In this document: piece after piece, positions 7,147-57,860 of the stretch
Numbering within the stretch: the stretch's first letter is position 1
Layout of the letters: each line of letters opens with the position of its first letter
DNA from: Artemia franciscana
Lineage: Eukaryota > Arthropoda > Branchiopoda > Anostraca > Artemiidae
Length of the DNA: 64,000 bases
Assembly (NCBI RefSeq): GCF_032884065.1
Contig: NC_088867.1
Span: 43,600,241 to 43,664,240 of the forward strand
Direction of reading: 5' to 3'
Program-made: the position numbers and the translations under genes
Notes under the pieces: model-generated
The model's database searches: none
What the model saw: only the letters and a program-made list of their open reading frames with translations
What the model was told of the DNA's origin: nothing

Positions 7147-7325
7147 AAATCCTGCTTAACAGCGTGGGAAACTACCACGAGGGAAAGTATTGGGAAAAAA
7201 AAATATCCAATACAATACGATATCCAATATCGATACAATGAAATGTTTCAGTCCATCATAGCCACTGTCACAGGCATAAAAAAATATAAAATATATTCTT
7301 AAGCAATGTACAGCAGCTGTGATGG
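7147..7325 (+). repeat. Duplicated segment B, copy 2
   Basis: Second copy of 6295-6472. It continues into flanking sequence that itself resembles 11750-11870 on the far side of the ~688-bp satellite. 6648-7146 between the copies holds the dispersed repeat also found at 2331-2520 and otherwise nothing recognisable. Confidence 0.9.
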
Positions 7326-7483
7326 ACTTCATAAGACTTCATTACTTCAAAAGCAAGATTTAATTCAAGCAAGGTTAGCACAGCACAGCACCACTTGAGT
7401 TTGAGATGGTATGTTTGAATATGATTTTCCCCTGGGTTGTAGGCTAAGAGGAAGGTCACTTATGCCTGATCCTGTCCCTACTT

Positions 7484-10400
7484 TTTTTACTTGGTTTTTA
7501 CTTTGGAAAGAGACCAAAAGTGAGATTGAATTTCTCATAGCTTGGAAGTTTGCCCTTCAGTCTGTTTAAAGAAAACAGATTCATATTTGAAGTTTAGTTC
7601 ATTTCAATCTTAGGGGTTGTCTACATTTTTGACACTTCATTAAATGGTTGTAAAGAAACACTTTTATTTATTTGTCTTGTTTGTTTCCAACCAGATTTTT
7701 TTTATATCTTTAAATTGATATACATTTTTTACAAGTTAATTAGTCATACCACAGTTCCATTTGCAAGTTCTGACCTGCTTTGTAACCCTGGTCTTAAAAT
7801 TGCATATAAATTTATTGAAGCTAGGAAACATAGAACTCCTCTCTGTTTAGAAGAAAATGGATGGACATCAAGTAGATTTTGATACATTAAAATGGATGGA
7901 CATCAAGCAGATTTTAATACATTAAAGTCCTAGGACCTACACTCTTGTCTATAGCCTACATCAACAATTCTTTGAAAAGGAAGGACCACATTACTGGCAT
8001 TTCATCCTTTGTACTTATGTTTAATGGGTTTAAAAGAAAGCTTTTATAGCTAAGTCAGAAGCCCATTAAAGGACCTGGTGGTTCTTTAGCCAGGAAGTTC
8101 ACATACATATGTAAAACCACACATATGCAATATTGAATTAAAAAAAGGGAATAGTTGTGGGAACTTACTGTTTTTACTTGGTTTTTACTTTGGAAAGAGA
8201 CCAAAAGTGAGATTGAATTTCTCATAGCTTGGAAGTTTGCCCTTCAGTCTGTTTAAAGAAAACAGATTCATATTTGAAGTTTAGTTCATTTCAATCTTAG
8301 GGGTTATCTACATTTTTGACACTTCATTAAATGGTTGTAAAGAAACACTTTTATATATTTGTCTTGTGTGTTTCCAACCAGATTTTTTTTTATATCTTTA
8401 AATTGATATACATTTTTTACAAGTTAATTAGTCATACCACAGTTCCATTTGCAAGTTCTGACCTGCTTTGTAACCCTGGTCTTAAAATTGCATATAAATT
8501 TATTGAAGCTAGGAAACATAGAACTCCTCTCTGTTTAGAAGAAAATGGATGGACATCAAGTAGATTTTGATACATTAAAATGGATGGACATCAAGCAGAT
8601 TTTAATACATTAAAGTCCTAGGACCTACACTCTTTTCTATAGCCTACATCAACAATTCTTTGAAAAGGAAGGACCACATTACTGGCATTTCATCCTTTGT
8701 ACTTATGTTTAATGGGTTTAAAAGAAAGCTTTTATGGCTAAGTTAGAAGCCCATTAAAGGACCTGGTGGTTCTTTAGCCAGGAAGTTCACATACATATGT
8801 AAAACCACACACATGCAATATTGAATTAAAAAAAGGGAATAGTTGTGGGAACTTACTGTTTTTACTTGGTTTTTACTTAGGAAAGAGACCAAAAGTGAGA
8901 TTGAATTTCTCATAGCTTGGAAGTTTGCCCTTCAGTCTGTTTAAAGAAAACAGATTCATATTTGAAGTTTAGTTCATTTCAATCTTAGGGGTTATCTACA
9001 TTTTTGACACTTCATTAAATGGTTGTAAAGAAACACTTTTATATATTTGTCTTGTTTGTTTCCAACCAGATTTTTTTTTTATATCTTTAAATTGATATAC
9101 ATTTTTTACAAGTTAATTAGTCATACCACAGTTTCATTTGCAAGTTCTGACCTGCTTTGTAACCCTGGTCTTAAAATTGCATATAAATTTATTGAAGCTA
9201 GGAAACATAGAACTCCTCTCTGTTTAGAAGAAAATGGATGGACATCAAGTAGATTTTGATACATTAAAATGGATGGACATCAAGCAGATTTTAATACATT
9301 AAAGTCCTAGGACCTACACTCTTTTCTATAGCCTACATCAACAATTCTTTGAAAAGGAAGGACCACATTACTGGCATTTCATCCTTTGTACTTATGTTTA
9401 ATGGGTTTAAAAGAAAGCTTTTATAGCTAAGTCAGAAGCCCATTAAAGGACCTGGTGGTTCTTTAGCCAGGAAGTTCACATACATATGTAAAACCACACA
9501 TATGCAATATTGAATTAAAAAAAGGGAATAGTTGTGGGAACTTACTGTTTTTACTTGGTTTTTACTTTGGAAAGAGACCAAAAGTGAGATTGAATTTCTC
9601 ATAGCTTGGAAGTTTGCCCTTCAGTCTGTTTAAAGAAAACAGATTCATATTTGAAGTTTAGTTCATTTCAATCTTAGGGGTTATCTACATTTTTGACACT
9701 TCATTAAATGGTTGTAAAGAAACACTTTTATATATTTGTCTTGTTTGTTTCCAACCAGATTTTTTTTTATATCTTTAAATTGATATACATTTTTTACAAG
9801 TTAATTAGTCATACCACAGTTCCATTTGCAAGTTCTGACCTGCTTTGTAACCCTGGTCTTAAAATTGCATATAAATTTATTGAAGCTAGGAAACATAGAA
9901 CTCCTCTCTGTTTAGAAGAAAATGGATGGACATCAAGTAGATTTTGATACATTAAAATGGATGGACATCAAGCAGATTTTAATACATTAAAGTCCTAGGA
10001 CCTACACTCTTTTCTATAGCCTACATCAACAATTCTTTGAAAAGGAAGGACCACATTACTGGCATTTCATCCTTTGTACTTATGTTTAATGGGTTTAAAA
10101 GAAAGCTTTTATGGCTAAGTCAGAAGCCCATTAAAGGACCTGGTGGTTCCTTAGCCAGGAAGTTCACATACATATGTAAAACCACACATATGCAATATTG
10201 AATTAAAAAAAGGGAATAGTTGTGGGAACTTACTGTTTTTACTTGGTTTTTACTTTGGAAAGAGACCAAAAGTGAGATTGAATTTCTCATAGCTTGGAAG
10301 TTTGCCCTTCAGTCTGTTTAAAGAAAACAGATTCATATTTGAAGTTTAGTTCATTTCAATCTTAGGGGTTATCTACATTTTTGACACTTCATTAAATGGT

Positions 10401-11735
10401 TGTAAAGAAACACTTTTATATATTTGTCTTGTTTGTTTCCAACCAGATTTTTTTTATATCTTTAAATTGATATACATTTTTTACAAGTTAATTAGTCATA
10501 CCACAGTTCCATTTGCAAGTTCTGACCTGCTTTGTAACCCTGGTCTTAAAATTGCATATAAATTTATTGAAGCTAGGAAACATAGAACTCTTCTCTGTTT
10601 AGAAGAAAATGGATGGACATCAAGTAGATTTTGATAGATTAAAATGGATGGACATCAAGCAGATTTTAATACATTAAAGTCCTAGGACCTACACTCTTTT
10701 CTATAGCCTACATCAACAATTCTTTGAAAAGGAAGGACCACATTACTGGCATTTCATCCTTTGTACTTATGTTTAATGGGTTTAAAAGAAAGCTTTTATG
10801 GCTAAGTCAGAAGCCCATTAAAGGACCTGGTGGTTCTTTAGCCAGGAAGTTCACATACATATGTAAAACCACACATATGCAATATTGAATTAAAAAAAGG
10901 GAATAGTTGTGGGAACTTACTGTTTTTACTTGGTTTTTACTTTGGAAAGAGACCAAAAGTGAGATTGAATTTCTCATAGCTTGGAAGTTTGCCCTTCAGT
11001 CTGTTTAAAGAAAACAGATTCATATTTGAAGTTTAGTTCATTTCAATCTTAGGGGTTATCTACATTTTTGACACTTCATTAAATGGTTGTAAAGAAACAC
11101 TTTTATATATTTGTCTTGTTTGTTTCCAACCAGATTTTTTTTATATCTTTAAATTGATATACATTTTTTACAAGTTAATTAGTCATACCACAGTTCCATT
11201 TGCAAGTTCTGACCTGCTTTGTAACCCTGGTCTTAAAATTGCATATAAATTTATTGAAGCTAGGAAACATAGAACTCCTCTCTGTTTAGAAGAAAATGGA
11301 TGGACATCAAGTAGATTTTGATACATTAAAATGGATGGACATCAAGCAGATTTTAATACATTAAAGTCCTAGGACCTACACTCTTTTCTATAGCCTACAT
11401 CAACAATTCTTTGAAAAGGAAGGACCACATTACTGGCATTTCATCCTTTGTACTTATGTTTAATGGGTTTAAAAGAAAGCTTTTATGGCTAAGTCAGAAG
11501 CCCATTAAAGGACCTGGTGGTTCTTTAGCCAGGAAGTTCACATACATATGTAAAACCACACATATGCAATATTGAATTAAAAAAAGGGAATAGTTATGGG
11601 AACCTACTGTTTTTACTTTGGAAAGAGACCAAAAGTGAGATTGAATTACTCATAGCTTGGAGGTTTACCCCTTCAGTCTGTTTAAAGAAAACAGATTCAT
11701 ATTTGAAGCTATGTTCATTTCAATCTTAGGGGTGA
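7484..11735 (+). repeat. Satellite array of ~688-bp units, about six copies
   Basis: A landmark, ATGGTTGTAAAGAAACAC, falls at 7644, 8331, 9019, 9708, 10396 and 11083, giving periods of 687-689 bp. The units are nearly identical. Differences are mostly lengths of one T-run and single bases. Each unit can encode a ~79-residue peptide beginning MVVKKHFYIFVL, but T-run length changes break it in several copies, so it is probably not a gene. The last unit degenerates from about 11600 and diverges at about 11735. Each unit contains an internal near-duplicate, TGGATGGACATCAAG(T/C)AGATTTT. Confidence 0.95.
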
Positions 11736-12115: not shown

Positions 12116-12757
12116 ACTAAAAAAGGTAAAAACTAAAAGAACTAAAAAAGAAAAAAATAAATGACGACACTCAAAGAGAAAGCGACCAGGACAAAAGGAA
12201 TGTTCGATTAGCAATCAACAAAGCACCGGGACACAGGGAGTATAAATGACGACCAGGACAAAACTAAAAAATCTAAAAATCTAAATAAACTAAAAAAGAA
12301 AAAAAAAGGAAAAAAATAAAGGAGAAAAACAAAACTAAAAAACGAATGTATATACAGACCGGTACACCGGGATACAAATGACGACCGGGACACAGGGAAT
12401 ATAAATGACGACCGGGAGACGACCGGGACACCGGGACAGGGAATGGTCGATTAGCAATCACCATCAACAAAGCTCAAGGGCAATCATTAGAATCATGAGG
12501 TATAGATCTGAATACAGATTGTTTTCCCATGGACCATTATATGTTGCATGTTCAAGAGTCGGTAAACCTGACAATCTATTTATATGCAAAGACAATGGGA
12601 CAGCAAAGAATGTTGTATATTCGCAAGTTTTACGTAGTTAAAACCATATATATATATCTATCTATATTCACAGGTGGGACATAGGGACACAACTACAATG
12701 GCGCGTAACTATTATGGCGCGTAACGACTTACGCGCGCGGGGGGGCTTGGGGGGGGG
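12116..12757 (+). mobile_element. Helitron 3' portion, truncated at both ends
   Basis: It contains the A-rich interior, the GACCGGGACACAGG minisatellite, and a decayed helicase tail (GCAATCACCATCAACAAAGC; the helicase frame reads [34 protein letters not shown]) ending at about 12641. The 3' subterminal text ATTCACAGGTGGGACATAGG and GGCGCGTAAC follows. It breaks off in a G-run at about 12757, before the terminal hairpins, and joins a helicase fragment directly. Confidence 0.8.
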
Positions 12758-13990
12758 CAAAATGATATAGCGTTGGCAATTGCGTCGTCCGGAATAGCCG
12801 CAACATTGCTGCCTGGTGGAAGAACTGCTCATTCCGCTTTGAAATTGCCTCTGAACTTGCATTCTACAGAAACTCCCACGTGCAATATTTCCAAATCATC
12901 TGGGATGGGTAAAGTATTGCAGCAATGCAAACTTATTATTTGGGATGAGTGCACAATGGCACACAAAAAATCGCTCGAGGCTCTGGATCAATGCTTGAAA
13001 GATTTGCGAGGGAAGTCGAAACCCTTTGGCAGCACATTAATATTGCTTGCGGGAGATTTCAGGCAAACATTACCTATAATACCTAGATCAACTCCTGCAG
13101 ACGAAATGAATGCTTGCCTGAAAAATTCTAATTTATGGGCAGACGTAAAAACATTAAAATTAACTACAAATATGCGTGTCCGATTGCAAAACGATGACTC
13201 TGGTCAAACATTTTCAGATCAATTGCTGGCAATGGGAAACGGAAAGCTCCCAGGAGACTCAATTTCAGGACGTATACAACTACCTGCTGATTTCTGTAAT
13301 TTAGTGACGTCCAAAAATGAATTGATTGAAAAAGTATTTCCGAATATTCTAAAAAATTATAAAAATAATAAATGGCTAAGTGAAAGAGCGATTCTCGCAC
13401 CCAAAAATATAGACGTCCACGAAATCAACAATATTGTTTTGACCAAGATTCGAGACAAGGCAGTCCTTTACAAGTCAGTCGACACAGTTTTGGAACCAAA
13501 TGAAGCGGTTAATTATCCATCTGAATTTTTAAATTCCATAGATCTTTCAGGGTTTCCACCACACGTGCTACAACTAAAAATAGGCGTACCAATAATACTT
13601 TTAAGAAATATAAACCCACCAAAGCTTTGCAATGGCACTCGATTTGCCGTAAAAAAAAACAATGGAAAACCTAATAGAGGCCACAATCTTGACAGGGCCT
13701 TTTGAGGGTGAGGCTGTTCTTATTCCTCGCATTCCCATGATTCCAACGGATCTGCCTTTTCAATTTAAAAGATTGCAATTCCCAATTCGATTAGCATTTG
13801 CAATCACCATTAACAAAGCTCAAGGTCAATCATTAGAAAAATGTGGTATAGATCTTAATACTAATTGTTTTTTCCCATGGACAATTGTACGTTGCATGTT
13901 CGAGGGTCGGTAAACCTGACAATGTATTTATATGCAGCGACAATTGGACAGCGAAGAATGTTGTATATTCGCAAGTTTTACGCAGTTAAT
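12758..13990 (+). pseudogene. Helitron PIF1-type helicase, 5'-truncated and frameshifted
   Basis: The frame ...DIALAIASSGIAATLLPGG is the segment just after the Walker A loop in Helitron Rep/Hel helicases. Then come a Walker B-like IIWDECTM (about 12942), LLAGDFRQTLPI (motif III, about 13050), LTTNMRV (about 13160), ERAILAPKN, GVPIILLRNINPPKLCNGTR and FAITINKAQGQSLEKCGIDL (motif VI). Walker A and the whole Rep nuclease part are absent, because the sequence starts at a junction with a Helitron 3' tail. An extra A in the run near 13650 shifts the frame, and a longer T-run near 13868 shifts it again. It cannot encode a working helicase. The C-terminal part is repeated immediately downstream. Confidence 0.9.
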
Positions 13991-13997
13991 TTGTATT

Positions 13998-14496
13998 TGG
14001 GAACCAAATGAAGCGGTTAATTATCCATCTGAATTTTTAAATTCCATAGATCCTTCAGGGTTTCCACCACACGTGCTACAACTAAAAATAGGCGTACCAA
14101 TAATACTTTTAAGAAATATCAACCCACCAAAGCTTTGCAATGGTACGCGACTTGCCGTAAAAAAAACAATGGAAAACCTAATAGAGGCCACAATCTTGAC
14201 AGGGCCTTATGAGGGCAAGGCTGTTCTTATTCCTCGCATTCCCATGATTCCAACGGATCTGCTTTTTCAATTTAAAAGATTGCAATTCCCAATTCGATTA
14301 GCATTTGCAACCACCATCAACAAAGCTCAAGGGCAATCACTAGAAAAATGTGGTATAGATCTTAATACAGATTGCTTTACCAATGTACAATTGTATGTTG
14401 CATCTTTGAGGGTCGGTAAACCTGACAATCTATTTATACGCACAGACAATGGGACAGCGAAGACTGTTGTATATTCACAAGTTTTACGTAGTTAAT
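13998..14496 (+). pseudogene. Tandem duplicate of Helitron helicase C-terminus
   Basis: From EPNEAVNYPSEF to VVYSQVLRS-stop, this ~500-bp block repeats 13491-13990. The frame stays open through both runs that are shifted in the first copy, including GVPIILLRNINPPKLCNGTR and TTINKAQGQSLEKCGIDL (first residue T, where the first copy has I). Its first bases join the end of copy 1 at TTTGTATTTGG|GAACC. Lacking motifs I-IV, it has no helicase function by itself. The open frame suggests it is younger or closer to the parent gene. Confidence 0.85.
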
Positions 14497-27065: not shown

Positions 27066-28662
27066 TATATATATATAAATAAGTTGTCTGTGTGTTATGT
27101 CTGTCGAGTGACGTCATGTCTTCATGAAGTTAGTTGTCGTCATGTTTGTTTTGGCGATGAGGTCATTAAAGTTACTTAAGAAATTCGTTCAAAGACAAAT
27201 TTTTAATTGTAAGAAGATCGTGGACGGAAAAATGTTTAATTGTAAAATGACCGAAGAACCTACAATGGCAACAGCCGAGGAAGCTGCTCAAAGAGTCTAT
27301 GCCAAAAAATTTGCTGCTGCTAGAGAAAATAAGAAAAGAAAGCGCGCCGAGGAATCACAAGAACAGCAAGAAAACAGGCTTGCGGCTGATAGAGAAAGTA
27401 AGAACAGAAAGCGTGCCGAGGAATCACAAGAGCAACGTGAAAACAGGCTTGTGGCTTCAAGAGATAATGCCAGATTAGGAATGTGCAATTTCCGTCAACG
27501 AAGGCGTGTCGAGGAAACTAGACTTGCTGCTAAAAGAGAAAGTGAAAAAAGAAGGCGTGCCGAGGAATCACAAGAGCAACGTGAAAACAGGCTTGCGGCT
27601 TCAAGAGATAATGCCAAAAGAAAGCGTGCCGAGGAATCACAAGAGCAACGTGAAAATTATCGCATGGCATTCAGGTACAGCCCAGTCGATGATTATAGTA
27701 TATGTGTTCAAATTGGGACTATGTCTAAAATTTGTCCCTACTGCAAGGCCTTGAAATTTAATGGTGAAACAATGGGAAGGTGTTGCGCCTCAGGAAAAGT
27801 TTAAACTTTCTAAACTGGCTGCACCCCCAGAGTCATTGAAGACTTTGCTTGCTGGAACTGCGTCAAAATCTAAGCGTTTTTTTTTTTATCAAAAATCAGA
27901 AAATATAACTCATGTTTCCAAATGACGTCGTTTGGCGTATTAATACAAAAGAAGAAAAAAAAACTAAAAAAGGTAAAAACCACAAAAAAACTAAAAAGAA
28001 AATACTAAAAAACTAAAAAAGCTAAAAAACTAAAAAAAAATAAAAAAAGGTAAAAAACTAAAAACTAAAAAAGAAAAAAACTAAAAAAACAACTAAAAAA
28101 AGGTAAAAACTAAAAAGAAAAAAAACTAAAATTAATAAAAAAAAACTAAAAAAACTAAAAAATTAAAAAGAAAAAAAAGAAAAAAAATTGAAAAATAAAG
28201 GAGAAAAAGAAAACTATAGACCGGGACACAGGGAATATAAATGACGACCGGGACACTCAAAGAGAAATCACAAACTGGGACACAAATAACGACCGGGAGA
28301 TATAAATGATGACCGGGACACTCAAAGATAAATTACAGACCGGGACACAGGGAATATAAAATGACAACCGGGACGCTCAAAGAGAAATTACAGACTGGGA
28401 CATTGGGACACAAATGACGACCATGATACTGGGAATATAAATGACGACCGGGACACAGGGAATGTTCGATTAGCAATCACCATCAACAAAGCTCAAGGGC
28501 AATCATTAGAACAATCAGGTATAGATCTGAATACGGATTGTTTTTCCCATGGACAATTTTATGTTGCATGTTCAAGAGTCAGTAAACCTGACAATCTATT
28601 TATATGCACAGACAATGGGATATCGAAGAACGTTGTATATTCGCAAGTTTTACGTAATTAAA
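27066..28662 (+). mobile_element. Helitron carrying a Rep/Hel N-terminal fragment, 3' end lost
   Basis: It follows the preceding CTAG directly, as TATATATATATAAATAAGTTG with no clear TC. It carries a TGACGTCA site near 27111, the N-terminal coding fragment at 27124-27804 and its frameshifted continuation to about 27950. The A-rich and minisatellite interior and the helicase tail (about 28465-28662) follow. It ends in (AT)n without the hairpins and CTAG. It appears to be an internally deleted autonomous element: N-terminus and C-terminal tail kept, the core lost. Confidence 0.8.
27124..27804 (+). pseudogene. Helitron Rep/Hel N-terminal region (charged repeats plus zinc-finger-like part)
   Basis: 226 codons. 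The likely original start is the ATG at 27247 (MTEEPTMATAEEAAQRVYAKK), which is shared with 28906. Four to five degenerate ~23-residue repeats, RESKKRKRAEESQEQRENRL, form a basic/acidic helical stretch. They are followed by YRMAFRYSPVDDY and CPYCKALKFNGE...GRCCASGKV, a CxxC...CC pattern typical of the front of Helitron replicases. A stop follows GKV. In another frame the protein continues as LSKLAAPPESLKTLLAG and NSCFQMTSFG to about 27940, so one frameshift breaks it. The Rep HUH nuclease and helicase are missing. It was probably a DNA-binding front end of the transposase. Confidence 0.8.
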
Positions 28663-30684: not shown

Positions 30685-32747
30685 GTAAGTTTGATTTTCA
30701 CTGTCAGTAAGCTTCCTGTAAATGTAGGTGAACCTTTTTTTCAAAATGTGTCAGAAAATCAATGAAATTTTCGCTCAATAGGAATAAGATCTTTCCTCAG
30801 TCTGAAATGGTGAAAGGTCTTCTAATGAACAATCCTACGTCTGATATTTGCTGGAAACACTGGATTGAACATTCGAAAAGAGTGGGAAACTCATAAGTCA
30901 AGTTACTTAAGTTGATCTCTGTAATAAAAAAAACTGAGAGCATCTAGTGCTACATAGGAAAATCATAAAATTAATTATAAAAGCTGAATTAAAAGTATTT
31001 TCTGCAGTCTCTTCTGTTACTCTCTCCTTTTCTGCTTTGTATTTGGCAAATGATAAACGAGTCTCAAAAACCTCAATAGAACCTCCTGTAAAAAGAACGC
31101 AATACTCCATGCCTATCTACCTTAGTTCCGCCCTAGGATGGATGATAGACTATCTATCAACAAGTGAAATGAATCATTTTTAATCCTGAAAAAGGTTATG
31201 CCTATTTTGTCTCTCATTGAGACTATCTGTATTGTCTTTACTCCAATAAGTCAGGGATCTTAAGGTTTTCATCACTTTCACAAAGTTGACTTTAATTTTA
31301 AATTCTCTGTTGATTTTTGAAATAAAATCAACTTGGTGGAAGTGATGGAAGATTGTGTAAAAATTATTCAGTTCATTTGTTGACAGATAGTCTGATTTTT
31401 ATGGGTTTTGTTTTTCAAAAAAGTGATGAAAAACTTGAGAGGCATGGCTAATAAAGCCGAGATTTTCCAATGCTGCTGGCTATACTTAACTGGCAGCTGT
31501 ACTAGTGCTGGAGCCTTTTAGAGCTGGAATTGAATATTTGCCGTCCTATTTCATCACGTTTCTCAGATCAACTATCTCACCCTTCCAAAGTATTTTGATT
31601 TGTGACTTCGATGATAATCTGAGGTTACATTATACTAATATTCTTATTATCAAATTTATAGCATATACATATCTATAACCTATTTCATTGACAATCTGGA
31701 TCTTTCGTTTTGATTGCTAATTGGAAATCTTGTTACTACTATCCTGATGACCGTTTGTAATCCAACATTGAATTATTGAATTGTCAATGAAAAGACGTTT
31801 TGGGAATAATTTCAAAGTTAGCTGTTTCTTTTCTGTATAAATTATTATTTTTGAATTGAGGTTAAACTCAACAAAATAAAAAGAAAACATAGAGAAACAG
31901 TCAAACAATGAAAATTCAGTGGCCAAAAAGTGAAAAAAAAATTGAAATTTAGTGAACAAAAATGAAAAAATTAAAGTAAACAAAAACTAAAAAGAAAAAT
32001 TTAAGAGAACGAAACAGTTTTAAAATAAAATCTAGCGAACAAAAAATGAAAATGTAAATTATCTCAGTTAAAAAAAAAAAACGACTTGCTCTGCAAAAAA
32101 TAAAAAATGATAATTTGCTCATTAGAAAATGAAAAAAAGTGAGAGTATACTCCTAAAAATTAAAAGTTTATTCAGCCAAAAATGAAAAAGTCAAGTTTTT
32201 CAGCAAAACTGAAAAAGTGAAAATTTATTCTGCAAAAAAACGAAAAATTGAAGGATTTTCTCAGCAAATTATATAATTTAGCAAAAGTTACCAAAAAGTC
32301 TAGATGTTGCTTTTCTGCATGAATGATTAACTTTGAAGTTAATCATTTTCAAAGTTCTACAAAATAGAGATCACTTATAACAATCACCAGAGGGAGGCAA
32401 CGAAATCCCTGAAAAATAGACGGCTGACTCTTTTATTGCTCTCAACTGATTATTATTCTATCACTTAACATAAAAAATGTTAAGAATAATCGTAGAAAAC
32501 CATGGTTTTCAGGTATCAATAGACCAAAGCTTGATCAAACGTGATAAAAGTTTGATCACGTTTTATCAAACGTGATAAAAAGTGATATTGATGCCCTTGT
32601 TACTTTAATATGTTTTTGATGTGTAGTTTATCAAGCATGTTGTTAAGCAGGTTAACATGTATCAACAAGTTAATGTCGCGTATTTTTAAGTTAATTTTAA
32701 GTTAGCTGAGAAATTTTGATTATTTATTTGCACGGTTTAATTTGGTT
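30685..32747. other. No recognised gene; A-rich degenerate repeat
   Basis: This is probably the next VPS18 intron. 31890-32270 is a degenerate tandem of roughly 30-40 bp, built from GCAAAA-ATGAAAAAGTG and AAATTTA. 32533-32581 holds two direct copies of ATCAAACGTGATAAAA around an inverted TGATCACGTTTTATC. Nothing else is recognisable. Confidence 0.55.
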
Positions 32748-32847
32748 NNNNNNNNNNNNNNNNNNNNNNNNNNNNNNNNNNNNNNNNNNNNNNNNNNNNN
32801 NNNNNNNNNNNNNNNNNNNNNNNNNNNNNNNNNNNNNNNNNNNNNNN
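32748..32847. other. Assembly gap, 100 N
   Basis: Exactly 100 N. It interrupts the endonuclease frame of a non-LTR element, just after SDISDHFPAIS. Confidence 0.99.
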
Positions 32848-33701
32848 TCTTATATTGGGATATAGCGGGAAAATGATCAGAAATATCACTAACCAGCACC
32901 AAATTATCTAAGACATCTAGTGACGAAAAAATATTATCGATAAGAGACGCTTGTCTTTCTGTAACTCGGGTTGGTATACAAACTGAGGGTAGTGTTCCCG
33001 AAGAGAGAATCATTGACAAAAGATCAATAGTTGCAGCAGAATTTTGATCCAGCAGGTTGAGGTTAAAATCATCCATAAGGATTAGGTCATAGGGATGTTT
33101 TTGGACTGAGTCCAAAACTTCTTCAGAATTTTCAAAAACGAAGGAATAGATCCACTGGGGGACCTATAAACCAAACCCACAACTAAATACTTACGCATTG
33201 ATTTAATCTCAATAAATAGGGATTCAAAGATTCCTTCCTTATTTCTGCTCAAACCATATCGGACATCTGTTTCCTATTCAACCTCTCCATTGTATATCCT
33301 GGAATATCTAGAAGGATATCCTTTGTTGAATCCAGGAAAGTTTCACATAATCCTATAACATCAGGAGTTCCATCACTAACGATCCGTTTCAGCTCATCAA
33401 AAGACGAGCAGAGTCCCTGAATGTTAAGATGGAACACAGAGAAAATATCATCTCGTTTAGAGGAGGCAGAACCATTTAATTGCGAAACATACTTACTTTT
33501 AAAAGCCGAATTAGAATCATTATTCATCTGATTTCTACTTCCAATTGAATTATTAATAATATTTTCAAAATCTAAAGGATTATTTTGTAAATAATGTAAA
33601 CGATCCCCCAAGGAGTTGATACCAGCCTGGCCACTACTCATGGTGGATGGCAGTTCCGCCCCACGACCAAGCCCACCAGACCACAGGTATAAGGAAAACA
33701 T
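32848..33701 (-). pseudogene. Non-LTR retrotransposon ORF2, APE-type endonuclease part
   Basis: Read from 33701 downward: FSVFHLNIQGLCSSFDELKR (first catalytic block, N), PDVIGLCETFL (E), YGLSRNKEGIFESLFIEIK and LVVGLVYRSPSG in a second frame, then YDLILMDDFNLNLL (usually GDFN), PTRVTERQASLIDNIFSS and VLVSDISDHFPAI (SDH). This is the complete endonuclease domain order of CR1/L2/Jockey-type LINEs. There is a frame change near 33120-33140, another near 33245, and an internal deletion between QMSDMV and YGLSRN. The reverse transcriptase would lie beyond the gap. It is not visible there, so it is deleted or unassembled. Confidence 0.8.
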
Positions 33702-43247: not shown

Positions 43248-43689
43248 GAGTGTAGCTCCAGCATTTTTTTTTCGGTGGAAGTCGAGTCCATGTCCGGAGA
43301 CTATACAATATTTTCTTATGCAAATTATCGAGGGGTATTGCCTCCCTCTCCCTCTTCGCCAAACGATGCCACTGTACATATATACTCTATTGAAACAGGC
43401 AATAATCGTGTATTTATGTATGTAATTTTTTTTTTCAAAAATGGCTCCATTTTTTTATTTGCAAAATTGACATCCTGGGATTTTCCGGTCCGAAAAAAAC
43501 CTTCTAGATCCGTCACATATTTGAAAAAATGAAAAATGACGCTTTGGTTAGAAAACATGGGACAGCGATCATCGGAACGAGTAAAAAACTAGACCTACGT
43601 TGCCCGGGCAACGTGAAGTGTTGAGGCAACCTTTGTCCGGCTTCGCCGGTTTGCGAAAGCAACACTTTGGTTTTGTTTCTTTGCTATCG

Positions 43690-44250
43690 ATCAGTAATCA
43701 CATGATCAAAGGCTATCCCTCAGCGTTGAAAAAACAACAATAAAATAGTATCGAAAGAGGGAACTAAATTGACTTTGCAGCCAGTTGAACTTTATCCTTT
43801 TTAATCGTAGACATCGTGACGGATGAAAACTCGGAACAATATCTTACATAATCTAATTGGTATTATAAAGCTATCCCTAACTTTTCAGGATCAAAATACC
43901 ATAGATGACATTCTATTAATTATTTATAAAACTATCTCATTATTTTACATTCTCGAATGTAACATTTACATTTACATTTACATTATCGAAGTTTTTAAAC
44001 GGTTTGTTCAAACAAAGAACACAATCAGTTTTCACATGACTAAAGGCTATTCATCAGCGTTGAAAAAACAACAACTACAAAATAATATCGAAAGAAGGAA
44101 CTAAATCGACTTTGCAGCCAGTTAAACTTTATCCTTTTCAATCGTAGACATCGTGACGGATGAAAACTTGGAACAATATCTTATATAATCTAGTTGGTAT
44201 TATAAAGCTATCCGTAACTTTTCAGGATTAAAATACCATAGGCGACACTA
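43690..44250. repeat. Two-copy tandem repeat inside the Helentron-like element
   Basis: About 43697-43915 (ACATGATCAAAGGCTATCCC, CAGCGTTGAAAAAACAACAA, GCAGCCAGTTGAACTTTATC, ACATCGTGACGGATGAAAAC) recurs at about 44034-44250 with about 10% change, a period near 337 bp. The intervening segment has ATTTACATTTACATT. Confidence 0.85.
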
Positions 44251-44359
44251 ATTATTGCGAAAACTACCCCATTGTTTTGCGTTATCGTTTTTACCCGCTG
44301 CGTAAAGACTTCATTCTATCAGATTTAAAGAGATAGACTACAATGTGCACCAATTTGCA

Positions 44360-44960
44360 CAAATTTCTAGCCCAAAGTGAACAGATTCTTACTTCCAAGT
44401 CCCTCTCCCGTAATAGACATCAAGTTCACCGGAAACAAATAAATGGGTACACCAATTAGCAAAAGTTGCATACCCCTCATCGCTGAAGATGATTGTAGCC
44501 CAACAGAAGATTATTATTTACAAGTCCCCTACATGTCTTACCACTGGAACCAAATTGGATTAACCATCAAATACACCGGAAACAAATAATAGGTACACCA
44601 ACTAGCAAAAGTGGCAAACCCCTCATTGCCGAAGATGATTATGAGCTAACAGCCGTTTCTCGCCCAAAGTGAACCGATTCTTACTTATAAGTCCCTCTCC
44701 CATGATAGGCATCAAGTTCACCGGAAACAAAATAAATGGGTACACCAACTAGCATAGTTGCAAACCCCTCATCGCTAAGGTTGATTGTAGCCTACCAGCA
44801 GATTATTACTTACAAGTCCCCTACATGTCTTACCACTGGAACCAAATTGGATTTACCATCAAATACACTGGAAACAAATAATAGATACACCAACTAGCAA
44901 AAGTTGCTAACCACTCATTGCCTAAGGTGATTATTACCTAACAGCCAACTGTTGCTTACA
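44360..44960. repeat. ~150-160-bp tandem repeats inside the Helentron-like element
   Basis: Four to five degenerate units share TTACAAGTCCC(C/T), TCACCGGAAACAAATAA, GGTACACCAACTAGC, AAACCCCTCATTGC and GATGATTAT. Alternate units are more alike than neighbours, giving a higher-order period near 310 bp. Confidence 0.85.
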
Positions 44961-45887
44961 AGTCCTTTATATGTCTCACAATTTGTATCGCCCTAGATTT
45001 CTTTTCAGTGTGTACCTTACTACTGAAGTTGTCAACCCCTTGAAACTTTAACTGGTATACCTCATGAAGGAATTTTTGTACCACAAAATGGATGTCATAT
45101 ACTTTGATCAGCTCATCAAGAGCTATCGATTGCCATCGAAAAAAAATTCTATCTGTCTTAGTTCAAAAGTTGATTTTTTTTGCCGTAGGCCAACTTTCTA
45201 ACGTCACCACTTAGAAAGGAGCAAAGGATAAGTTCCAATTTCTTTAGCAATGAGAGGACTTTTAAAGTTTATTAGGCACATCTGATACCATTTCTCTACT
45301 GCAATCCCAAGTCCGAAAAACCGAATGATAAACTCAGCTGAAATCACGAACGGAAATGGATAGAAACAATAGATGGCAGCACTTGCGGACCCGTGGGAAA
45401 ACGCCGCATTTTTGCTTCTGTAAGTTTTTCTATTTATCACTTAAGAAAGATATATTGGCTGTGGGGCCGAGTAACTGCCGTATATATTTAACACTTATTT
45501 TAGTCCATCTTCAATTTGAAAGTGGTGCCTGCCTGCTTGCCTGCTAGAACGGAGCTTTTCACTCGAAAGCAGAAACATGCTTTGATGAGACGAAAGTTTG
45601 GCTGCACAACTTCACATACTCCTCTCTGATATAGGCTATATAACTCCACTTCACTTTGCACACCATAGGCTCTGGCTCGTGGACAAGCAAAACTATCCTT
45701 TTTGGCCCCAGGCAAGAGCTCTGCGGAGCTTCCAAAATGTAATGTCATATTCATCAATCCGACCTGAGGTCCACACTTCCGTAAAAACCGCAAAGGATCG
45801 ACCCTTAATAGTTTCCAGGAATAAGCTGAGATCGGACACAACGGAAAAAAAAAACAGGACAAAACCAAAGTGTTGCTCTCGCAACAC

Positions 45888-46835
45888 AATGAAAGTGTAG
45901 AATAAGGAATTTTACGATTAGAAGACATGTGACAACAAGAGTCAGAACGCATTAAAAATGAAAGTGAAGAATATAAAATTATGCAAATAAAACATACGAC
46001 AGCGAGTATCAGAACGAATCAAAATGAAAATGAAAAAGAAATAAATACTGAGTTAGAAGAACAACGTTGATGTACTTTATAGACCCCGATAAAGCTGCTG
46101 AAAAACTCCTTTAAGTCTATATCCTTTATTCTATATCCTTTAAATTATGGGATGCCTCGTAACGTAATGGATCTCTTGGAAGAAATATTGCGAGAAACAA
46201 ACAACTATCCCAAAGGTTACAAGAAAATAAGAGATATGGAAGATGATGAAAATCAACATGCTGCTTCACTGGAACAACAGCCTCCAAACGGGCAGCTCAT
46301 TTTCTCCGAGCCAGGTTGTGTTGATTATAGACGGTTCTATCTCCTGCATGTAATGAAGTATGCACCGTACTTACTTTTAATGCTGCTCATAGTTTCCCGT
46401 CAAATGAGATGGTTGTAAGACAATGTTACTAAAATGAAGCACCGATGTTACCTAAGTATGGGTTACAAAATATGGATCAGTTGTCGCGGTCCCTTGCAAA
46501 TTCAAGCTTGTCATTTCAAGGGAGAATTCTAATTGCTAAAAGTGATTTCCGACAGTGTTTACTAGTTCAACTCTGAAGCAATCGCATTGAAACATTTGAA
46601 TTGTCAATAAAAAAAGTCATCTTTGGAAGTATTTCAAATATTTTTCCTTAGAAAAAAAATATGCGGGACGATACCGAGCCGGAAGCATTTGTAAAGTATG
46701 TCCTGGGCCTGAGAAACGGATATCTTCCCAAAAGTGACTTCAGTGAAATTGAATTACCGAAAGATATAATTTCCAGTGCTATTTCAATTGAGGAAGTATT
46801 TAGAGACTGTTTGCCAGACCAAAATTTCGATTAAT
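45888..46835 (+). pseudogene. Older Helitron Rep/Hel remnant, interrupted and internally deleted
   Basis: Upstream, 43551-43588 (RKHGTAIIGTS-like text) and 45888-46060 hold the SER-IKNESEEYK-type charged front repeats. Next, DVLYRPR/FIDPDKAAEKLL-like text and an open stretch from ATG 46152, MPRNVMDLLEEILRETNNYP, KGYKKIRDMEDDEN, fit the region before the Rep domain of Helitron replicases. At 46661-46832, MRDDTEPEAFVKYVLGLRNG, YLPKSDFSEIELPKDI and SIEEVFRDCLPD match the helicase segment that follows the TTNMR motif (compare 13170-13340). The Rep nuclease and helicase motifs I-III are deleted. It differs strongly from the 12.7-kb helicase, so it is a second Helitron lineage. Confidence 0.65.
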
Positions 46836-56559: not shown

Positions 56560-57860
56560 TTGGTTCAGAGCTCGACCACCTTAGGGATGTTTTATTTGGG
56601 AACTGTTATCCAATTAGTTTAATAAATTCTGTAATTGAAAAACCTATAAAAAAGTTATCAGATAGTGACGCAGTTAACACACACCAACAGTTAACAGTTA
56701 ACACAAGGGAAGATCCCGTTTAACTTGGTCTCTTGTACGTAAAAGGGGTTTCAAAATATATTTCCAAAGATCTAAAGAAAAAGAAACTTACACTTATTAT
56801 AGACCCAGTAAAACTATCAGTTCCAAAATATTTCAAGGTAACGACCCTATCCTGAAGGGTGAATACTCTGGTGTCTTCAGAATTCCATGCTCGTGTGGTC
56901 TTTGGTACATTGGAAGAACTGACCAATGACTTAAGGATAGATTAAATCAGCACTGTACCTTAATTAACAATATCCTTAAAAAGCGGAAAAACAAATTTTT
57001 CGACTCTACCTTTACAGAACATCTTTGATCACCCGGAACATACTATATTATTCAACCAAGCTAGTTTGATTTTGCATGACAAACGTTTTGTCCAGCATTA
57101 TATTGAAGCATTTGAAATTTTTAAATGCCAGAACTTACGTCTAGCTTTGAACAGAGATTCTGGTGATTTAAGAATAAATAAGTCATGTTCCAGTTTTGTC
57201 AAAAGAGAAGCCGATACTTTAGTAACCCCTAAAATGAACCTTGAACCACCTTCCCAATCATATAATCAAATACGTCAACAACCCCTTAGGTCTCAAAGGG
57301 TGTCTGCAAGGAATGCAATTATTAAAATCAGAAATCAGATGACATAGTTCTCAAACTTATTTAATTGCTGGGTCGTTTTGTTTTAAGTGAATGAGTGTTT
57401 TATTTTATTTCTCAGTTGTTCGCTATTATCCGTCACTGGCAGTTCACATTTTTCTGGATTTTGTGTAAATTGCGGATATTGGCGAATGAATCACTTTGTG
57501 GTTGTTAAGTATTTGGTTTTGATTCTTGTAATTTTTGGCTTTTATTGAATTTTAATCATCCTTTAGTTTTTTGTTTTTTTCATTGTTTTTTTTTTTAAAT
57601 TGACTTTTCGCGTTTGTTTTGTTGGTTTTTTCTTCAGTACATTTCTTCAGTATATTATTTTGTTTCGCGTTGAAGAAGAGAGGTGGTTTTCTTCTCGAAA
57701 TATTTGCCTTGTTTGTTTATTCATTATTCTCATTTGGCTTTGAAAAACCCCGCTTTTGATAGTTTCCATTTTTATATCTTTTTTTTGCTTTGTTTAATTT
57801 CCCCGGACAATTTTGAGACGGGTATAAAAATTAGTGATAATTTAAAGAAAATTTTGCCAT
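56560..57860 (+). mobile_element. Penelope-like element, 5'-truncated, opposite orientation
   Basis: It starts at GAGCTCGACCACCTTAGGGA (protein DHLRDVLFGNCYPISLINSV) and runs through the GIY-YIG endonuclease GVFRIPCSCGLWYIGRTDQ (about 56870-56930) and HPEHTILFNQASLILHDKRF. An open 3' stretch at 57066-57347 ends NAIIKIRNQMT, then stop. Stops (after RTDQ) and frameshifts disrupt the rest. The 3' untranslated part (57355-57860) aligns inverted with 53400-53920. Compared with the other copy it retains YIG where that copy reads PIG. Confidence 0.85.

Follow-up and report, generated by a model that had tools for sequence, protein, structure and literature searches.

A stretch of 64,000 nucleotides of the Artemia franciscana genome (assembly GCF_032884065.1, NC_088867.1, positions 43,600,241 to 43,664,240; hereafter the window) carries on its minus strand a 2301-bp element, 5'-TT...CTAG-3', at 43589..45889. 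It very probably belongs to a non-autonomous family of rolling-circle transposons, present in high copy number and built like the HINEs (non-autonomous Helentrons), and sits in minus-strand orientation in a decayed Helitron gene. The extent was established from 21 left and 15 right ends aligned across the genome, from the phase of repeats in the flanks and from junctions between copies elsewhere. An original prediction, made from the sequence of the window, had placed the element at 43589..45887. Its left end stands; the right end was moved to 45889 to take in the terminal AA, which reads 5'-TT on the minus strand. Of 15 right ends 14 carry it, and each head-to-tail junction described below has it once.

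Genome searches were run against the 1.27-Gb assembly. The left end was used as a query and the best 40 of 2109 first-look candidates were scored, the window among them. All 40 start at query base 1 or 2 and the 39 others are 91-93% identical to the query; as the query itself started at 43589, the boundary rests on comparison of the flanks. Stretches of 7 kb were retrieved around 20 of these 39 matches, which with the window gave 21 left ends. A right end was also present in the window and in 14 of the 20 retrieved copies, at 1.3-4.1 kb from the left end. The termini are the same across the 21 left and 15 right ends, with flanks that vary between copies; copies do terminate at 43589 and ~45889, a coincidence that had been set beforehand as a test of the prediction. 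Patterns of 35 nt for the 5' end and 37 nt for the 3' end, searched with up to 2 mismatches, matched at 1824 and 1029 places respectively and their reversed controls at 0. These counts are lower bounds for the ends; the copies at locus L042 are one mismatch too many for the 3'-end pattern. The family is interspersed, with well over a thousand copies in the genome.

All 15 two-ended copies have the same layout of 5' end, unique stretch, 146-bp units, 335-bp units and 3' end. With nhmmer the unique stretch was recovered in each of the 15, complete or partial (partial in L021), and the three longest copies (3.9-4.1 kb) hold additional internal DNA. The longest stop-free frame is 87-168 aa across the 15 copies, and a Pfam scan of all six frames of the window element returned no domain. 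The gene-less interior with two kinds of tandem repeat that had been predicted was recovered.

In element orientation the family starts with TTGTGTTGCGAGAGCAACACTTTGGTTTTGT; its end is made up of a 29-nt repeat in reverse complement, two hairpins and GTAGGTCTAG. TTGTG is found at 14 of 15 right ends and CTAG at 19 of 21 left ends. The 29-nt repeat, with its internal hairpin, is present at both ends of the family, exact at 5 of 15 5' ends and 7 of 21 3' ends and altered at the others. In the window, the 5' terminus TT and the hairpin GTGTTGC-GAGA-GCAACAC occupy 45870..45889 (aligned in 15 copies) and the 29-nt 5' subterminal inverted repeat 45859..45887. At the other end the 3' subterminal inverted repeat lies at 43651..43676, followed by a hairpin CCGGC-GAA-GCCGG at 43637..43649, the 18-bp terminal palindrome ACGTTGCCCGGGCAACGT at 43597..43614 (exact in 15 of 21 copies) and the terminal CTAG at 43589..43592, all on the minus strand. 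The palindrome stops 8 nt before the 3' terminus, and the 3' subterminal repeat is 66 nt from the end in the family and 62 nt in the window copy.

The inverted repeats 43651-43676 and 45859-45884 noticed in the prediction match at 25 of 26 positions; when both end zones were dinucleotide-shuffled 200 times, the best 26-mer match was 19/26. Their length of 26 bp holds for the window, against 29 nt for the family repeat, which is a palindrome in its own right; the shorter figure arose because the 3' repeat of the window lacks 7 nt carried by the 20 other copies (20/20). Minus-strand folding gave hairpins in the 3' zone (z -3.06, 2/200 shuffles equally good) and a hairpin in the 5' zone (z -3.72, 1/200 shuffles equally good). 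The predicted minus-strand Helitron-type 3' end of CTAG and 18-bp palindrome, and the HINE-type architecture of subterminal repeats, palindrome and tandem-repeat core, were both upheld. Separately, the right end of locus L021 has 17 bp of the element's 5' terminus in direct duplicate, with TTGCTCTCGCAACACAA occurring twice on the plus strand.

Insertion occurs between A and T and needs no target duplication. TTGTG is preceded by A in 12 of 15 copies (flank background A 0.30), and CTAG is followed by T in 21 of 21, with a second T in 19 of 21. An A^T target fits at least as well as a TT or T-rich one, because A precedes the element in 12 of 15. Paralogous empty sites were aligned to filled ones: the alignments of L031 with two places of its own stretch and of L026 with L039 had no gap at the join, and L047 was compared with L050 and L051, the join reading TTAA|TTTCTG in L047 and L050 and CTAA|TTTCTG in L051. 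A target-site duplication had been named in advance as the sign of a cut-and-paste transposon; the empty sites give none beyond a TT that is ambiguous between element and target. At L023 and L029 the left flank is GA and the right end AA, and these two loci, together with the head-to-tail junctions, favour but do not prove that the TT is terminal to the element. Copies L026, L031 and L033 lie in related host repeats. By eye, L026, L031, L033 and L047 are inserted at similar points of seemingly one host repeat with TTTCTG adjoining, of which L050 and L051 are unbroken copies, a possible hot target.

A readable empty site had also been claimed for the window copy itself. The target resolves into a left side at 43557..43588 (plus strand), part of a 23-codon (69-bp) repeat of the decayed Helitron gene, and a right side at 45890..46060 (plus strand), where the repeats of the left side resume; both were placed by repeat comparison and the phase test. 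The flanks joined as 43586|45888 restore the phase of the repeat and translate as MGQRSSERVK-NESVE*GILRLED beside M*QQESERIKNESEEYKIMQIKH. When the insert is taken as 2301 net, the unit formed by the join agrees with the unit after it at 48/69 positions; with 18 other net lengths (2292-2310) the agreement is at 41 or fewer. A complete Helitron protein encoded at locus L041 has comparable 23-aa repeats at its N-terminus, and such repeats in window 27112-27801 match Pfam STPRs below threshold (25.7 vs 27 bits). Right of the insertion, at about 46430-46730, is a decayed PIF1-like match (E 3.3e-5, 24.0 bits vs the Pfam cut-off of 25.9). From the 69-bp flank repeats, the likeness to the L041 repeats and the PIF1-like match, the host site is therefore most likely what remains of an older Helitron gene, as the prediction had it.

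Direct joins of CTAG to TTGTG were searched with 3 mismatches allowed (control 0). An exact CTAG|TTGTG junction was found at six places, all with 0 mismatches, at four loci, and the six probably represent three events. Three lie in L042, a row of four copies. Where these align, the likeness is 98.9-99.3% among copies 1-3 and 88-90% between them and copy 4; between copies 2 and 3 and the 15 two-ended copies elsewhere it is about 79-97%. The dimer at L045 has shared blocks that are 95.9-97.6% alike. At L046 and L047 the CTAG is followed by 20-23 nt of the element's own 5' end and then by host repeat. When the stretch downstream was used as a query and the best 40 of 2907 candidates were scored, 38 of 38 matches besides the two own loci started at query base 23-33. 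The simplest reading is that a second round was begun and halted just past the 5' hairpin. The sequence past this junction was also considered as the 5' end of a partner element and rejected, as it is host repeat and has no Pfam domain in six frames (L047). Exact 3'-to-5' junctions of like kind are borne by Helraiser circles (PMC4778049), and tandem Helitron arrays have been attributed to bypassed termination (PMC4067079). The exact junctions, a mark of rolling-circle elements, therefore favour rolling-circle transposition over cut-and-paste, and rolling-circle transposition is well supported by the structure of the family.

From these structures we infer an enzyme, a strand intermediate and a terminator role for the hairpins. 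The nick would be made at the CTAG/TT boundary by a Rep-helicase whose gene lies at another place, one strand starting 5'-TTGTG would be peeled off, and copying would halt on reaching the 3' subterminal repeat, the palindrome and CTAG. A circular or linear copy would then insert at A^T without target duplication, with the tandem arrays carried along inside the element. Where termination now and then failed and a second round followed, the outcome could be multimers in head-to-tail order or a second copy only a few nucleotides long. Tentatively, and with some doubt, the family may represent a living animal intermediate between Helitrons and Helentrons that combines paired subterminal hairpins of the Helentron kind, CTAG/A^T chemistry of the Helitron kind and a Rep-helicase without endonuclease, with the 5' hairpin as a second stop signal. 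Such a stop, the hairpin being present also in the 3' subterminal repeat, would explain the halt after 20-23 nt at L046 and L047.

Several observations weigh against the family being a rolling-circle HINE as read here. No replicase sharing the family's ends was found in a limited search in which one autonomous Helitron was examined. In 6 of the 20 retrieved copies no 5' end was recognisable within 6 kb. Comparison of L029 with its empty site L022 was not clean, with a 2-nt gap nearby, and by empty sites alone the TT as element terminus is inseparable from a 2-bp duplication. Head-to-tail junctions are rare (6 vs 1824 5' ends) and fewer of them are independent, L046 and L047 appearing from their downstream sequences (98.2% alike, single chromosome) to be one event that was duplicated; the junction between units 3 and 4 of L042, which are only 88% alike, may come from a separate insertion. 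Two further tandem candidates were rejected: L043, with two close 5' ends, consists of separate copies, and L044, with two close 3' ends, has its 3' end duplicated together with flank, neither having a head-to-tail junction.

A derivative of a strict Helentron, with a partner encoding Rep, helicase and endonuclease, is a reading of some weight, if somewhat unlikely. Palindromic subterminal repeats, a 3' palindrome, absence of coding capacity and an unmodified T-rich target are all found in the family, in agreement with the structural features of HINEs in PMC4067079 save that the 3' subterminal repeat is slightly farther from the end. The HINE-Mo elements of Metaseiulus (PMC4067079) have a palindromic subterminal repeat 2-4 nt from the 5' end (here 2 nt), a 3' palindrome about 8-35 bp from the end (here 8 nt) and a T-rich target left unchanged, as here. 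Their subterminal repeats are shorter (12-15 bp), the 3' one is 38-60 bp from the end (here 66 nt, and 62 in the window), and some of the families have a known Helentron partner. In the available part of PMC4067079, CTAG and A^T are given for the endonuclease-less proto-Helentron and not for Helentrons, and an endonuclease-bearing partner was not found here in a limited search. The Helentron replicase with a shared subterminal repeat, which had been proposed as a check of the prediction, was likewise not recovered in that search, and membership in the endonuclease-bearing Helentron group is therefore unproven. The proto-Helentron-Pi of Phytophthora infestans (PMC4067079) lacks the endonuclease and has, by description, the same 5'-TT, 3'-CTAG and A^T insertion without target duplication; it is autonomous and about 14 kb long, unlike the family here. 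The prediction had correctly called CTAG a Helitron-type end and had missed that CTAG, 5'-TT and A^T in combination are unlike published Helentrons and fit a proto-Helentron. The architecture is HINE-like and the ends (5'-TT, CTAG-3', A^T) are of Helitron/proto-Helentron type.

It is unlikely that the family derives from a canonical Helitron and is mobilised by the abundant L041-type Helitron in place of a Helentron/Helitron2 enzyme. Helitron_like_N (PF14214) is abundant (the best 150 of 7436 candidates in the genome search were scored, at nearly equal values of 197-205 bits, mostly about 201), Helitron-type CTAG|T ends are present in the window, and the family shares with canonical Helitrons a 3'-CTRR end, an upstream hairpin and the A^T target, the palindrome being 8 nt from the terminus vs about 11 (PMC4067079). 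Non-canonical, on the other side, are the hairpins at both ends, the subterminal repeats and the 5'-TT, with 5'-TTGTG in place of 5'-TC in 14 of 15 copies. L041, the only match examined in detail, has a frame of 1688 aa in which the motif reads VEWQKRGLPHAH, a canonical GLPH; by a rule in PMC4067079 Leu in the Rep motif marks canonical Helitrons. It was rejected as the partner on this motif and on its ends, which differ and share only short chance words with those of the family. Viral contigs gave 0 matches to the subterminal inverted repeat pattern and no confirmed relative of the L041 Rep region.

L041 and window 12725-14495 belong to a very abundant autonomous canonical Helitron, with the 23-aa repeats N-terminal in L041; window 12759-14004 is 97.5% identical to L041, and one place among the listed matches to this Helitron has a 2091-aa frame. 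Helitron-type 3' ends with a hairpin and CTAG, followed by TATATA or TATATC, stand at window 14844, 16821, 19814, 24211 and 27062 (plus strand), and the abundant Helitron appears to be located in (AT)n microsatellites.

A cut-and-paste element resembling a miniature inverted-repeat transposable element, with a 2-bp TT target duplication and the subterminal repeats as its inverted repeats, is highly improbable: TT does stand on both sides of most copies and could be read as a duplication between head-to-tail units, but the very ends are not inverted repeats (CTAGAC... vs TTGTGT...), no duplication extends beyond the ambiguous TT, L023 and L029 have GA in the left flank vs AA at the right end (which a point mutation could also cause), units 1-3 of L042 are about 99% alike vs roughly 79-97% when units 2 and 3 are compared with the 15 two-ended copies elsewhere, and the 20-23 nt of a second 5' end at L046/L047 are not given by targeted re-insertion.

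Elements of this kind are known, and the essential combination of features of the rolling-circle family is already in print for the oyster, with 5'-TC and not TT, the likeness being one of description and not of sequence. The CTAG-ended elements of Crassostrea gigas (PMC7992393) resemble the family in the CTAG 3' end, the 3' hairpin and the A^T target (86%), and are set apart, by description, by 5'-TC vs 5'-TT here; 257 of 751 carry subterminal inverted repeats and were called possible Helitron-Helentron intermediates. Cg_HINE/Pearl elements of bivalves (PMC7492417) share a subterminal inverted repeat with an adjoining inverted repeat, a microsatellite, a 3' subterminal inverted repeat and a palindrome. 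Their satellite-like arrays of 138-181 bp units are like the arrays here, two Cg_HINEs have two consecutive kinds of tandem array, and in the available text no partner is identified for them either. By description they differ in having 11-12 bp subterminal repeats and a TT target, vs 29 nt, CTAG and A^T here. Fusarium Helitron2-type elements combine hairpins with asymmetric inverted repeats (PMC5148889). A literature text search with three end strings returned nothing recognised as related. The ends, empty target sites and head-to-tail copies are unusually clear in the A. franciscana family. With more than 1,000 copies, mapped ends, empty sites and multimers, end recognition and termination become testable; PMC7492417, in its available part, does not settle which partners serve the HINEs of the Pacific oyster that carry satellites. 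The family also illustrates a route for the dispersal of satellite-like repeats.

Between its ends the window copy is composed, on the minus strand, of the unique stretch common to the family at 44985..45858 (without Pfam domain; nhmmer layout), tandem array B at about 44340..44979 (~146-bp units with a 292-bp higher-order period; repeat analysis and Tandem Repeats Finder, TRF) and tandem array A at 43690..44287 (~335-bp units, about 1.8 copies; repeat analysis). A short, unstranded (TGCC)n microsatellite lies at 45526..45544, between the 5' end and the tandem arrays (TRF period 4, 4.8 copies, score 31). Besides the element itself no further copy of the family was found within the window; a weak look-alike at 57479-57527 was considered as a second copy and judged by eye to be chance.

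Elsewhere in the window, a mir-210 match at 7236-7332 (minus strand) is just over the Rfam gathering score (51.2 vs 50 bits) and points to a bilaterian source, and a ~688-bp tandem array lies near it at about 7650-11400. A frame at 32720-33163 (minus strand) is broken by an X stretch (200 N in the window) and resembles the endonuclease of a long interspersed nuclear element.
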